DNA of 64,000 bases, taken from positions 124,001 through 188,000 of the forward strand of contig NZ_BMHH01000002.1 of NCBI RefSeq assembly GCF_014640615.1, read 5' to 3'. Position 1 is the stretch's first letter. Each line of letters begins with the position of its first letter. The notes below the pieces were generated by a model that was given only the letters and a program-made list of their open reading frames with translations, did no database searches and was not told the DNA's origin. The translations under genes and the position numbers were made by a program. Source of the DNA: Paramesorhizobium endophyticum. GTDB taxonomy: Bacteria; Pseudomonadota; Alphaproteobacteria; Rhizobiales; Rhizobiaceae. This document shows, in pieces, positions 52,463 to 56,832 of this stretch.

Positions 52463-52545
52463 GTAAAAACAGATGAATCGTGCGCAGCGGGCGTATGATG
52501 ACCCGAAGATCAAACGGATGATCTTCAAGCAAAGGAGAGACATTC

Positions 52546-52641
52546 ATGAAGAAGACATGGACAAAGCCGACCATGTGCCAGGTCGCCGCCGGAATGGAAA
52601 TGTCCCGTTATCTTTCCGCCGAACTGAAGGCAAAGAAGTAA
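52546..52641 (+). CDS. pqqA: PQQ precursor peptide PqqA
   Basis: 31 residues: MKKTWTKPTMCQVAAGMEMS RYLSAELKAKK. The Glu and Tyr that are fused to make PQQ are in MEMSRYL (E-x3-Y). AAGGAGAGA precedes ATG 52546. Too short for ordinary gene finding, but its place at the head of pqqBCDE and the exact E-M-S-R-Y motif leave little doubt. The hairpin after its stop may keep its mRNA more abundant than the rest. Confidence 0.95.
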   Translation: MKKTWTKPTMCQVAAGMEMSRYLSAELKAKK

Positions 52642-52649
52642 TCCTTTTT

Positions 52650-52679
52650 CCGCCCCGCGTGGAATCCCGCGCGGGGCGG
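52650..52679 (+). promoter_or_regulatory. Hairpin between pqqA and pqqB
   Basis: 10-bp perfect stem CCGCCCCGCG / CGCGGGGCGG with a 10-base loop, 8 bp after pqqA. No T-run follows, so it is likely an attenuating or 3'-protective structure rather than a full stop. Confidence 0.65.
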
Positions 52680-52721
52680 TCGTTTATCTGGAATATGCCC
52701 CAGAGGCGGTAAGGGCGCGGA

Positions 52722-53762
52722 ATGCTTTTGAAGATCATCGGTTCCGCGGCGGGCGGCGGTTTCCCTCAATGGAACTGCAATTACGCCCTGAGCCGCGCGG
52801 CGCGAGCAGGGGAGCCGGGCTTCCAGCCGCGCACGCAGTCGAGCCTTGCCGTCAGCGCCGACGGAACGGACTGGGTGCTGTTCAACGCCTCCCCCGATAT
52901 CCGCCAGCAGATCGCCGCGACGCCGCAATTGCAGCCGCCAGCCGATGGTCCGCTGCGGGCGACGCCGATCCGCGCGGTGGTGCTGACCAATGCCGATGTC
53001 GACCACATCGCCGGGCTGTTGAGCCTGCGCGAGCGCCAGCCCTTCGCCATTTACGCGACCGACCGGGTGCTGCAGGTGCTCGAAACCAATTCGATCTTCA
53101 ACGTGCTCGACCGGGCGATTGTCCCGCGGCGCAGGCTCGTCCTGAATGAGCGCACGGAGATACTGGGCGCCGAGGAAAAGCCGACTGGCATTACCGTGGA
53201 AGCCTTCGCCGTGCCGGGGAAGGTGGCGCTGTTTCTGGAGGATGAGGCGCAAGAGGGATTTGGGACGGAGGAAGGCGATACGGTTGGCGTGCAGATTGAG
53301 GCGGTGGCGGAATGCCCCTCATCCCCCTGCCGGGACCTTCTCCCCGTGAAGAACGGGGAGAAGGAGGAGGCGGCAACGTCTGCGCCCCCCTCGCCCCGCT
53401 TGCGGGGAGAGGGTAAGGGCGAGGGGCAAATTCTCTACATCCCCGGCTGCGCGCGTATCGACGAACCCTTGAAAACCCGTATTGCAGAGGCCTCATGCCT
53501 TCTTTTCGACGGCACCGTCTATCATGATGACGAGATGATCCGCGCCGGCGTCGGCTCCAAGACCGGGGCGCGCATGGGGCATTTGCACATTGCGGGCGAG
53601 GTGGGATCGATGAGCCAGCTTGCGGATGTGCCTGCAGCGCGGCGCATCTATGTGCATATCAACAACAGCAATCCCATTCTCGACGAGAACTCTGCCGAAC
53701 ATGCGGCAGTGCGTGCGGCAGGATGGGAAGTGGCCTATGACGGAATGGAGATCGCGCTTTGA
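52722..53762 (+). CDS. pqqB: PQQ biosynthesis protein PqqB, with in-frame repeat insertion
   Basis: Metallo-beta-lactamase-fold enzyme of PQQ synthesis, proposed to hydroxylate a tyrosine-derived intermediate. It reads GSAAGGGFPQWNCNYALSRA, VVLTNADVDHIAGLLSLRER, NSIFNVLDRAIVPRRRLVLN and HLHIAGEVGSMSQLADVPAA, as in PqqB. The 346 residues exceed the usual about 305-310 because residues about 198-235 (CPSSPCRDLLPVKNGEKEEA then ATSAPPSPRLRGEGKGEG) come from a repeat (53314-53427), after which YIPGCARIDEPLKTRI resumes the family sequence. Whether the protein still works is unknown. Confidence 0.93.
   Translation: MLLKIIGSAAGGGFPQWNCNYALSRAARAGEPGFQPRTQSSLAVSADGTDWVLFNASPDIRQQIAATPQLQPPADGPLRATPIRAVVLTNADVDHIAGLLSLRERQPFAIYATDRVLQVLETNSIFNVLDRAIVPRRRLVLNERTEILGAEEKPTGITVEAFAVPGKVALFLEDEAQEGFGTEEGDTVGVQIEAVAECPSSPCRDLLPVKNGEKEEAATSAPPSPRLRGEGKGEGQILYIPGCARIDEPLKTRIAEASCLLFDGTVYHDDEMIRAGVGSKTGARMGHLHIAGEVGSMSQLADVPAARRIYVHINNSNPILDENSAEHAAVRAAGWEVAYDGMEIAL
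53314..53427. repeat. Palindromic element inserted within pqqB
   Basis: 114 bp bounded by GCCCCTC (53314-53320) and its complement GAGGGGC (53421-53427), with inner hairpin CTTCTCCCCGTGAAGAACGGGGAGAAG at about 53338-53362. Length is divisible by three, and it reads through without a stop in frame. The same element type lies between pqqC and pqqD. Confidence 0.85.
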
Positions 53763-54511
53763 CGGATTTTGCCAATGCCGCGAAGGACGGCCTGACACCC
53801 TCCCAGCTTGAAGAAATGCTGCGGGCGGTGGGCGCGGCGCGCTATCACAATCTGCACCCCTTCCACCATCAGATGGTGAGCGGCGCGCTGACCAAGGGGC
53901 AAATGCAGGCCTGGGCGCTTAACCGCTATTGCTACCAGGCCGTCATTCCTCGCAAGGATGCGGCGATCCTGACGAAGGCGGAGGACCCCGCCTTCCGCGC
54001 CGAATGGCGCAAGCGCATCGAGGATCACGATGGTAACGACGGCTGGAGCGGCGGCATCGCCCGCTGGCTGAAGCTTGCGACGGGCTTGGGGCTCGACGCG
54101 GATATGGTCAAGAGCGAAAGGCTGGCCCTGCCCGCGACGCGCTTCGCGGTCGGGGCCTATTTGAATTTTTGCAGGGAGCGCAGCCTGCTGGAAGCGGTAG
54201 CATCCTCGCTCACGGAACTGTTCTCACCGGTCATCATCAGCGAGCGGGTTCCGGCGATGCTGGCGAAATATGATTATGTCACCGAGGATATCATGGCTTA
54301 CTTCAAGCCGCGACCGGTCCAGGCTTCGCGCGACGCGGATTTCGCGCTCGCCTATGTCATGCAGCACGCCACCACGCCGGAAAAGCAGCAGGCGGTCATC
54401 GACGCGCTCGTCTTCAAATGCGATATTCTCTGGGCGATGCTCGACGCGCTCGATTATGCCTTTGGCAAAGGCCATGTGCCGCCCGGTGCGTTCAGGCCAG
54501 AGGAGATCTAG
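53759..54511 (+). CDS. pqqC: PQQ synthase PqqC
   Basis: Cofactor-less oxidase that does the final ring closure and oxidation to PQQ. 250 residues starting at TTG 53759, which overlaps the pqqB stop; GGAG is 8 bases upstream. Motifs: YHNLHPFHHQMVSGALTKGQ, QAWALNRYCYQAVIPRKDAA, KRIEDHDGNDGWSGG, and LAYVMQHATTPEKQQAVIDA. Length and motifs are normal for the family. Confidence 0.96.
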   Translation: MTDFANAAKDGLTPSQLEEMLRAVGAARYHNLHPFHHQMVSGALTKGQMQAWALNRYCYQAVIPRKDAAILTKAEDPAFRAEWRKRIEDHDGNDGWSGGIARWLKLATGLGLDADMVKSERLALPATRFAVGAYLNFCRERSLLEAVASSLTELFSPVIISERVPAMLAKYDYVTEDIMAYFKPRPVQASRDADFALAYVMQHATTPEKQQAVIDALVFKCDILWAMLDALDYAFGKGHVPPGAFRPEEI

Positions 54512-54534
54512 CGCTTATGTCTATGGTAGAATGT

Positions 54535-54651
54535 GCCCCTCACCCTAACCCTCTCCCCGTGAAGAACGGGGAGAGGGGGGCATCGACGTTGCCGCCTTTT
54601 CCTTCTCCCCGTCCTTCACGGGGAGAAGGTGCCGGCAGGCGGATGAGGGGC
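54535..54651. repeat. Palindromic element between pqqC and pqqD
   Basis: 117 bp, bounded by GCCCCTC (54535-54541) and GAGGGGC (54645-54651), with inner hairpins (CTCTCCCCGTGAAGAACGGGGAGAG; CTTCTCCCCGTCC... GGGGAGAAG). Sister of the copy inside pqqB. Its end GAGGGG lies 3 bases before the pqqD ATG. Confidence 0.88.
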
Positions 54652-54653
54652 AG

Positions 54654-54947
54654 ATGACGCAAACCGCCCGCGCCATCGTCTCGATGCAATCGCGCCCGAA
54701 ACTGAAGCGCCATGCGCGGCTGCAATATGATCCGGTGCGCGGGGCCTGGGCGCTGCTCTCGCCCGAGCGCATCTTCTGGCCGAACGAGGTGAGCCTCGAT
54801 ATTCTGCGGCTGTGCGATGGCTCGCGCGATGTGAGCGGGATGATCGCGGTTCTTGCCGAACAGTATGGCGCGGACGAAGCTGACATCGCTGATGACGTCA
54901 CGGCCTTCCTGCAGGAATGGTCGGACAAGCTTTTGGTGACATTATGA
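54654..54947 (+). CDS. pqqD: PQQ peptide chaperone PqqD
   Basis: 97 residues. PqqD binds PqqA and presents it to PqqE. Sequence RPKLKRHARLQYDPVRGAWA, LLSPERIFWPNEVSLDILRL CDG and AVLAEQYGADEADIADDVTA match the family; the first 10 residues are variable. Only GAGGGG from the repeat, three bases before ATG 54654, could serve as ribosome site. pqqE overlaps the stop (ATGA). Confidence 0.93.
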   Translation: MTQTARAIVSMQSRPKLKRHARLQYDPVRGAWALLSPERIFWPNEVSLDILRLCDGSRDVSGMIAVLAEQYGADEADIADDVTAFLQEWSDKLLVTL

Positions 54948-56047
54948 GCGATGCCATCCTGCCCCCCATTGCCATGCTGGCGGAGTTGACGCATCGCTGC
55001 CCGCTGCAATGCGCCTATTGCTCCAATCCGGTGGCGCTTCTGAAGGCCAACCGGGAAATGCCTCGAGAGCAATGGCTGGCGCTGTTCGAGGAGGCGGCGG
55101 ATCTGGGCGTGCTGCAGGTGCATCTCTCGGGCGGCGAGCCGACATTGCGTAGCGACCTCCCCGAACTCATCGCCTGCCTGGCGCGGCGCGGGGTCTATAC
55201 GAATCTCATCACCGCGGGGGTCGGCATTGCGGAAGGGCGGATCGAGGCTTTTGCGGAAGCGGGGCTCGACCATGTGCAATTGAGCTTCCAGGGCGCGCAT
55301 CCGGAGACCACCGCGAAGATCGGCAACCACGCGGACGCGCATCGGAAAAAGATCGAGACGGCGCGGCGGGTGCGGCAAGCAGCCCTGCCGCTGACGATCA
55401 ACGCGCCGATCCATCGCCACAACATCCACGAGGTGCCCGATTTCATCGAGATGGCGCTTGAACTGGGCGCGGAGAGGCTGGAAATCGCCAATGTGCAATA
55501 TGCGGGCTGGGCGCTGCTCAACCGCGACCAGCTGATGCCCGACCGGGAAGCTGTGGAGCGTGAGGTGCGGATTGTCGAGGAGGCGCAGGCGCGACTCACC
55601 GGCATCATGACCATCGATTTCGTCGCGCCGGATTATTTCGCGCTGTATCCCAAGCCCTGCATGGGCGGCTGGGCGCGGGATGCCTTCGTGGTGACGCCCG
55701 ATGGCACCGTGCTGCCCTGCCACGCGGCGCAGACCATCAAGACGCTGTCCTTCGAGCGGTTCGGCGAGCGCAGCCTGACCGAGATCTGGCTCGATTCCCC
55801 TGCCTTCAACACCTTCCGCGGCACGGGCTGGATGGCCGAGCCATGCCGCACCTGCGACCGGCGCGAACTCGACTGGGGCGGCTGCCGCTGCCAGGCAATG
55901 GCGATTGCCGGGGACGCCGCCGCCACCGACCCCGCCTGTATCCGCTCGCCCCTGCATGAGCGAATGGGGGCGCTGATCGCCGAAGCGGCGCGGGCGGACG
56001 GTGGGTTCCAGTATCGGCGGATCGGCAAGGTCGCTGAGCCCACCTGA
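54944..56047 (+). CDS. pqqE: Radical SAM PQQ enzyme PqqE
   Basis: 367 residues. Radical SAM enzyme that links the Glu and Tyr side chains of PqqA. The 4Fe-4S site is CxxxCxxC in ELTHRCPLQCAYCSNPVALL; SAM-binding glycines lie in LHLSGGEPTLRSDLPELIA. The C-terminal SPASM domain has Cys in TVLPCHAAQTI and in WMAEPCRTCDRREL and GGCRCQAMA for auxiliary clusters. ATG 54944 sits in the pqqD stop. Last gene of the operon; no pqqF is seen. Confidence 0.97.
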   Translation: MSDAILPPIAMLAELTHRCPLQCAYCSNPVALLKANREMPREQWLALFEEAADLGVLQVHLSGGEPTLRSDLPELIACLARRGVYTNLITAGVGIAEGRIEAFAEAGLDHVQLSFQGAHPETTAKIGNHADAHRKKIETARRVRQAALPLTINAPIHRHNIHEVPDFIEMALELGAERLEIANVQYAGWALLNRDQLMPDREAVEREVRIVEEAQARLTGIMTIDFVAPDYFALYPKPCMGGWARDAFVVTPDGTVLPCHAAQTIKTLSFERFGERSLTEIWLDSPAFNTFRGTGWMAEPCRTCDRRELDWGGCRCQAMAIAGDAAATDPACIRSPLHERMGALIAEAARADGGFQYRRIGKVAEPT

Positions 56048-56052
56048 ACGCC

Positions 56053-56832
56053 TCACCCGAACCATTTGTCGTAAACCGCCTTGTAGGCGCCGCTTCCCTT
56101 CGATTGATGCAGCCATTGATCGACGAAGGCTTTCAGATAGGGATCGCGCTGCATCCAATAGGCTTTTTCGGCGAAATTGAACGGCTTGTCGGGATGCACC
56201 GCGCATAGCACCCCCGGGTGCAGCTTCTGCTGATAGACCGTTTCCGGCGCGTCGGTAATCATCACATCCGCCTTGCCGGCCGCGATCTCATCGAAAATTC
56301 GGGTGTTGTCGTCAAAGACGGTTATCTTCGCTCGTTTCAGGTGGGTTCGTGCAAATTTTTCATTGGTGCCACCAGGATTTACGATCACGGTCACATCCGG
56401 CTTATCGATTTCGGCCACTGTCTGGAACTTGTCCTTGTCCGCGCAACGCGCGATCGGCGTCTTGCCCGCCTCCATATAGGGCGTCGAGAATAGGCCCATC
56501 TTCTGCCGGTCGAGCGTGATGGCGACGCCGCCCATTGCGATATCGAATTTATGCGCCTCGAAATCACGCGTGAGCTTCGGCCATGACGTCGGCACGATCT
56601 CAAGCTTCACCCCCAACGCATCCGCAAGGCGCTTGGCCTGATCGATGTCGAAGCCGGAGAACTTGCCCGATTCCGGATCCCGGTAGGTGAACGGCTTGTA
56701 ATCACCGGTCGAGCCGACCCTCAAAACACCAGCCTTGATGATTGCGTCAAGTCCAGTCGCGGGCTGTGTATCGCGGGCGAAGGAGGGGAGGGTGCTAAAG
56801 AGCAGGAATAGGAAAACAACGAGGGTGCGCAA
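56053..56832 (-). CDS. Periplasmic cyclohexadienyl dehydratase, PheC-like
   Basis: 259 residues. Signal peptide (LVVFLFLLFSTLPSFA) then a periplasmic-binding-protein fold. The segments VLRVGSTGDYKPFTYRDPES, KLEIVPTSWPKLTRDF, VIVNPGGTNEKFARTHLKRA, CAVHPDKPFNFAEKAYWMQR and VDQWLHQSKGSGAY closely follow PheC of Pseudomonas, which turns prephenate or arogenate into phenylpyruvate or phenylalanine outside the cytosol. An amino-acid-binding transport role remains possible. TTG start 56832, with GAGGA 8 bases upstream. Convergent with pqqE, 5 bp apart; upstream DNA is AT-rich. Confidence 0.78.
   Translation of the reverse strand: MRTLVVFLFLLFSTLPSFARDTQPATGLDAIIKAGVLRVGSTGDYKPFTYRDPESGKFSGFDIDQAKRLADALGVKLEIVPTSWPKLTRDFEAHKFDIAMGGVAITLDRQKMGLFSTPYMEAGKTPIARCADKDKFQTVAEIDKPDVTVIVNPGGTNEKFARTHLKRAKITVFDDNTRIFDEIAAGKADVMITDAPETVYQQKLHPGVLCAVHPDKPFNFAEKAYWMQRDPYLKAFVDQWLHQSKGSGAYKAVYDKWFG

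Follow-up and report, generated by a model that had tools for sequence, protein, structure and literature searches.

The window, the whole stretch of 64,000 nucleotides that was analysed, contains a pqq operon on the forward strand. By inspection of the sequence we read a short frame of 31 amino acids (...GMEMSRYLSAELKAKK) at 52546..52641 (+), which we take to be pqqA from its motif. pqqB follows at 52722..53762 (+) and encodes 346 amino acids that match TIGR02108 (PqqB) in the NCBIfam library with 394.8 bits (cut-off 245), the match being split in two stretches. Downstream are pqqC (TIGR02111; 53759..54511, +), with an apparent TTG start at 53759 that overlaps the pqqB stop codon, pqqD (TIGR03859; 54654..54947, +) and pqqE (TIGR02109; 54944..56047, +). 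The start of pqqE is our choice, the open reading frame itself running from 54917. Upstream of pqqB in loci L061-L064 there is also a reading frame matching pqqA.

Between the two PqqB stretches lies a RIME-type palindromic element (TGCCCCTC...GAGGGGCA) at 53313..53428. It is bounded by terminal inverted repeats at 53313..53320 (TGCCCCTC) and 53421..53428 (GAGGGGCA) and contains two inner hairpins, one at 53336..53364 with a perfect 12 bp stem and a 5 nt loop and one at 53390..53411 (CTCGCCCCGCTTGCGGGGAGAG) taken from the RNA fold. The element spans 114-116 bp, and its precise boundaries could shift by a few bases since the terminal inverted repeat of other copies runs further out (CGGAAT before GCCCC). 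The core from GCCCCTC at 53314 to GAGGGGC at 53427 is 114 nt, is divisible by three and is free of stops in the pqqB frame, where it is translated as CPSSPCRDLLPVKNGEKEEAATSAPPSPRLRGEGKGEG. This bears out the preliminary description, which had reported a palindromic repeat with these ends inserted in frame within pqqB. The sister element that it had placed between pqqC and pqqD is likewise present, at 54535..54651 and in the opposite orientation; this sister is absent from the pqqC-pqqD gap of L061-L064. A scan of 52500-56500 against Rfam gave no match at its family's gathering score; weak microRNA and RAGATH-31 matches below that score look like chance hairpin matches and were set aside.

The insert is absent from all 80 of the named PqqB relatives compared (the best 80 of 302), of which 70 are 312 amino acids long and the other ten fall within 310-320. 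It is likewise missing from pqqB in the five congeneric genomes that were searched (the 80 relatives include four of them). We looked for the same segment in unrelated species and did not find it among the PqqB relatives examined. These data support the earlier proposal that a repeat insertion built new protein sequence in PqqB, for which an alignment of orthologues had been suggested as a check. The length of 346 amino acids given for this PqqB was correct, while the usual length of 305-310 was a slight underestimate. All 92 columns that are invariant across the 80 relatives are kept in the 346-residue protein, and none lies within the insert. The insert is flanked by the conserved GDTVGVQI and LYIPGC, and in relatives the same site is a variable turn in which GDTIGVRI and FYIPGC are separated by about nine unconserved residues. 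On our reading of the alignment the loop ahead of the insert is about two codons longer in relatives. In PqqB 4z7r, whose structure is solved, the aligned position of the insert is between chain residues 185 and 188. Since the site is unconserved in relatives, the insert probably forms a surface loop of PqqB.

We found at least 36 copies of the element in the genome, merged from 80 BLAST pieces, a count that is a lower bound from a genome search in which 40 of 55 first-look candidates were scored. The ends of the element read CGGAATGCCCCTC. In 27 of the 36 copies a core of the form GCCCC...GGGGC spans 149-161 bp and ends in (CGGAAT)GCCCCTCACCCTTACCCTCTCCCCG and its mirror. A short form with a single CATCC..CTGCCGG..ACCTTCTCCCCG arm is represented by the copies in pqqB (114), between pqqC and pqqD (117) and at C5:61558 (112), and six copies are below 100 bp. 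The copy closest to the pqqB element is its pqqC-pqqD sister, with 87% identity over query bases 14-135 of 141. It is the closest copy yet only 87% alike, which neither confirms nor excludes that the pqqB copy was derived from this neighbour.

The RNA strand of the pqqB element has a predicted fold of -83.2 kcal/mol (z = -5.7), and none of 200 shuffles was equally stable. Two hairpins inside inverted-repeat ends, as seen in the pqqB element, are expected of the RIME type. MITEs are short, have terminal inverted repeats and carry no transposase gene, and the pqqB element shares all three traits. We saw no clean target-site duplication at the pqqB insert, where the loop seems about two codons short. 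The element probably moved as a MITE.

Plasmid matches together with the copies in the genome indicate that the pqqB element is a multi-copy palindromic repeat common to Rhizobiales. It matches 200 plasmid records, among them 83 from Sinorhizobium, 80 from Rhizobium and 18 from Shinella; S. meliloti plasmids cover 90% of the query at 77-78% identity, and repeats of S. meliloti 1021 pSymB and of Nitratireductor align with the short form from end to end. We call the element RIME-type, a provisional name whose support comes from papers that mention RIMEs as annotated intergenic repeats of S. meliloti (PMC2245857, PMC2573895). A search of 297 genomes of the family for the long-form peptide, under a strict cut-off (E ≤ 1e-12) with at most 22 candidates scored per genome, gave matches in 3, all of this genus. 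At E ≤ 0.001 the peptide was found in 5 of the 6 genomes of the genus. Peptide-only matches at this level also came from other genera (four genomes: G020, G034, G035 and G036), so the element is not strictly confined to the genus. In G035, which belongs to another genus of the family, the element peptide stands in open frames of 410 and 791 amino acids (G035:C62:54339-54464, L049, and G035:C65:149937-150086), and in-frame reading of the element may thus not be limited to this genus.

RIMEs are described as intergenic, whereas 8 of the 36 copies in this genome lie inside conserved genes, as judged by a six-frame reading of all copies with NCBIfam and Pfam scans. The eight genes encode PqqB, CydD (TIGR02857), CydC (TIGR02868), YgfZ (CAF17-like), a class II aldolase (PF00596), CobN (TIGR02257), a PxpB-PxpC fusion and IolC-DUF2090 (NF047869). 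All eight copies are open and are read in one common frame, which gives C/SPSPLPSPR...RGEGKGEG or a divergent variant; at a chance of one third each, eight of eight in frame is expected at about 1.5e-4 (calculated by hand). We then counted open frames on both strands of the 30 copies of at least 100 bp. The PSPLPSPR frame is open in 35 of 60 cases, the APHPYP...VRVRG frame in 28 and the third in 10. Since the APHPYP...VRVRG frame is open this often, stops alone fail to explain its absence from the eight genes. Length is also distributed unevenly, being divisible by three in 7 of 8 gene-internal copies versus 8 of 22 other copies of at least 100 bp (hypergeometric tail 0.018, by hand). The exception is the CydC copy of 152 nt, through which the frame is still open.

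No frame-breaking copy in a gene was seen among the 36, although the reading could have overlooked such a copy where the host gene is badly decayed. A scan of the flanks by codon usage gave one further copy with same-strand coding sequence on both sides. This copy, at C1:121501, was considered as a frame-breaking gene insertion and rejected, as it is intergenic when inspected by eye, with an RsmB-like gene on one side and a nucleosidase-like gene on the other. PxpB-PxpC is a single open frame also in the insert-free congener G005, where it is 668 amino acids long with nine bases between the two matches and one TGA reported within the N-terminal match. Because this fusion exists without the insert, the element appears to sit in a pre-existing linker. 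A second IolC-DUF2090 gene, 74-76% identical and without the element, is present at G000:C32:6923-8884 (L294) (G000 being the genome studied here).

For comparison, 12 plasmid copies from other genera were assessed by codon usage and none was inside a gene, a sample too small to differ convincingly from 8 of 36. Three plasmid records have real gene tables, with 285, 726 and 476 features, and in each of them the element is intergenic. Plasmid annotation was otherwise dropped as an intergenic control, 9 of the 12 opened records carrying only 1-6 features; the record of S. meliloti 1021 pSymB has 1 annotated feature in all. None of 60 plasmid matches spread over the set had a feature under its best place, 7 of them being marked as without annotation.

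One explanation for these data is that the insertion inactivated PqqB or marks the start of its decay, and that the frame has so far survived by chance, the event being a recent one. The presence of the pqqB insert in one genome only would fit such a history. However, pqqB has no frameshift or stop and keeps every invariant column, pqqC, pqqD and pqqE (by family matches) and pqqA (by inspection) look intact, and the eight gene-internal copies of the genome all keep frame. Outside the insert, pqqB has a dN/dS of 0.10-0.14 against the five congeners, which among themselves give 0.08-0.15. Since the insert is present in one genome only, its age may be too low for dN/dS to show whether the gene is still functional. 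Taken together, we regard decay of PqqB as unlikely, and the enlarged protein probably still works.

We examined the congeners at 35 loci of G001-G004 chosen for long open frames, and 30 of the 45 open reading frames there were scanned with Pfam; the resulting counts are lower bounds from selected loci, not rates. The element was inside a recognised gene in 13 of the 30, near the end only in 5 and in a frame with no family in 12. The internal cases are PxpB-PxpC, a NasA-like molybdopterin oxidoreductase (two species), TilS, Dus, an aminotransferase (two species), CydC, CydD, CobN, YgfZ, the class II aldolase and UvrD. For Dus the Pfam match covers only the part ahead of the element, ending there at profile position 228 of 311. 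Elements near the end only belong to CoaBC (twice), DXS and two transport proteins. In L207 and L223 (CoaBC) and L217 (DXS) the element is in frame just upstream of the gene, and the CoaBC element joins an antitoxin-like ribbon-helix-helix frame to the flavoprotein in two species.

NasA, TilS, Dus, UvrD and the aminotransferase are thereby added to the eight genes of the genome studied here. The congener set together with PqqB and IolC, whose element is common to this genome and G001, gives at least 13 different genes with an in-frame insert in the genus. The data thus add two things to the earlier account of pqqB, namely that the repeat is a RIME-type element found across Rhizobiales plasmids and that PqqB belongs to a set of at least 13 genes in the genus with such an in-frame insert.

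In all nine pairs that were aligned (CobN, CydD, CydC, YgfZ, aldolase, PxpBC, aminotransferase, NasA and the upstream extension of CoaBC) the element is at the same site in two species. With IolC counted and CoaBC left out, 9 of the 13 genes share their site across two species. Across six genomes the YgfZ element is in G000 and G001 and absent from the other four, and the TilS element is in G001 only. Stops were reported within the G001 matches to IolC (two), YgfZ (two) and CobN (one). In G001 the frames across the element are open over 723 amino acids for IolC and 352 for YgfZ, so the stops of these two lie outside, probably upstream of the gene start.

Nine genes with shared inserts were compared over stop-to-stop frames with 32-54 element codons each, and their dN/dS was 0.13-0.29 outside versus 0.36-1.48 inside the element. 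This suggests that the peptide is under little amino-acid constraint. In CobN, CydD, IolC (0.05 versus 0.65 in the host gene), the aminotransferase and NasA, synonymous divergence is lower in the element than in its host gene by a factor of about three to fourteen. It is about two-fold below in PxpBC, slightly below in CydC, slightly above in YgfZ and above in the aldolase. The low values count against simple neutral drift since a common ancestor. They could stem from gene conversion, from a recent exchange of DNA between the species or from constraint that acts on the hairpins. Exchange between species has some support, because between G000 and G002 the dS of cobN is 0.33 and that of pqqB 0.93, and because the pattern of sharing is unlike one simple tree, five genes being shared by G000 with G001 but CobN and CydD with G002.

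The CobN site, a loop after SLQRAIA (L239-L245), was read in six genomes of the genus. We found the RIME-type element there in G000 and G002 and a different repeat at the same site in G001 and G004 (GISPSRGEIGLH...SPLEGEMAGKPEGG in G001). In G003 and G005 the site has short stretches that resemble remnants of this second repeat. The second palindromic family is the more abundant one, has the peptide ISPTRGEI...SPLVGEMPGRAEGG and is also in frame in conserved genes. Among the candidates scored (at most 150 per genome) it gave 56-150 peptide matches per genome in six genomes. It also occurs further upstream in CobN of the genome studied here (L156:543-4211, +, residues about 224-270) and in frame in a PbpC-like open frame, identified by eye, in G000 and G001 (L323:930-3314, +). 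Ten second-family open frames were looked at, most of them ahead of any check against a family library.

A role for the element in pqq mRNA was also considered. The element could be kept for the effects of its hairpins, such as pausing, processing or a shift in the ratio of PqqB to PqqC or PqqD, with the peptide as the price. The very stable fold agrees with this proposal, as do the second copy in the same operon and the finding that, for several host genes, nearby synonymous sites change more than the DNA of the element. However, the same element is found in unrelated genes, and the use of the same CobN loop by another repeat family suggests that what matters is the tolerance of the loop and not one specific hairpin. 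We therefore find an mRNA role for the pqqB element rather improbable. It is highly improbable that the assembly misplaced into pqqB a repeat copy that belongs elsewhere. The element is high-copy and the genome is in 83 contigs, but no other copy has the sequence of the one in pqqB (next best 87%), the contig around it is 394 kb long, and inserts of the same kind are found at shared sites in separately assembled congeners. Removal of the peptide after translation, or skipping of the element so that mature PqqB is of normal size, can hardly be expected, no such feature having been noticed and Rfam giving no match at gathering score in 52500-56500.

Thus the in-frame segment of pqqB is very probably a MITE-like, RIME-type repeat that is tolerated in a flexible loop, acting in the manner of the RPE but belonging to another family. 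We propose that a non-autonomous repeat of the RIME type landed in the variable turn of PqqB between GDTVGVQI and LYIPGC. As its length is divisible by three and one frame lacks stops, translation would run through the element, and PqqB would gain about 38 hydrophilic residues rich in Pro, Ser, Gly, Glu and Lys, most likely as a disordered surface loop. Selection would act as a sieve. Copies that are in tolerant loops and in the frame PSPLPSPR...PPSPRxRGEGKGEG would survive within genes, and copies outside such loops or out of this frame would be lost or remain between genes.

Rickettsia palindromic elements (RPE) were reportedly described by Ogata et al. in 2000 and 2002, and Wolbachia palindromic repeats by Ogata et al. 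in 2005. The class to which we assign the pqqB element is said to go back to Osteras et al. (1995), who named it the Rhizobium-specific intergenic mosaic element. Our element resembles RIMEs in that it matches repeats on plasmids of S. meliloti and other Rhizobiales. According to the accessible parts of two sources, RPEs are palindromic repeats of about 105-150 bp that are found between genes and in frame in many unrelated conserved genes, and an RPE-bearing gmk is translated and active (PMC2229807, PMC10969869). The present system resembles the RPEs and the Wolbachia repeats in that a palindromic repeat is in frame in many conserved genes, here 13 in the genus. It probably differs in its sequence family, which is of the Rhizobiales RIME type. 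It differs also in the host, on account of which we do not class it as an RPE and which groups with Phyllobacterium and Paramesorhizobium and not with Rickettsia (the congeners are Mesorhizobium sp. RMAD-H1, Paramesorhizobium deserti, Phyllobacterium phragmitis and P. salinisoli), and in the second repeat family that alternates with the element in the same CobN loop. ERIC, YPAL/RU-2 and Correia/NEMIS belong to other bacteria and other sequence families, and in the accessible part of the review that covers them several fusions make new membrane or exported open frames, unlike the inserts in the middle of core enzymes seen here (Delihas 2007). Among titles and the beginnings of abstracts, with subscription journals mostly outside the search, we found no in-frame repeat insertions in Rhizobiales, which is not proof of novelty.

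Rickettsia is the best-known case of in-frame palindromic repeats in many core genes. A 2024 review states, in its accessible part, that Rickettsia took in-frame palindromic repeats to unusually high frequency and that a similar route of protein evolution is conceivable in other prokaryotes (PMC10969869). Our data suggest, with more confidence than doubt, that two unrelated palindromic families are a general source of new protein segments in this rhizobial genus, entering flexible loops of core enzymes, favouring one frame, being kept across species and replacing one another in the CobN loop. Mobile DNA thus appears to add new protein loops in relatives of soil and plant bacteria. Relatives of Phyllobacterium should be easier to grow and modify than obligate intracellular bacteria, and the genus offers natural pairs of enzymes with and without an insert, even within one genome in the case of IolC, which has a paralogue that lacks the insert. 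The old question of whether inserts of this kind do good, do harm or make no difference thereby becomes directly testable. If the reading is true, the proteome of bacteria outside the Rickettsiales is being reshaped again and again by selfish DNA.
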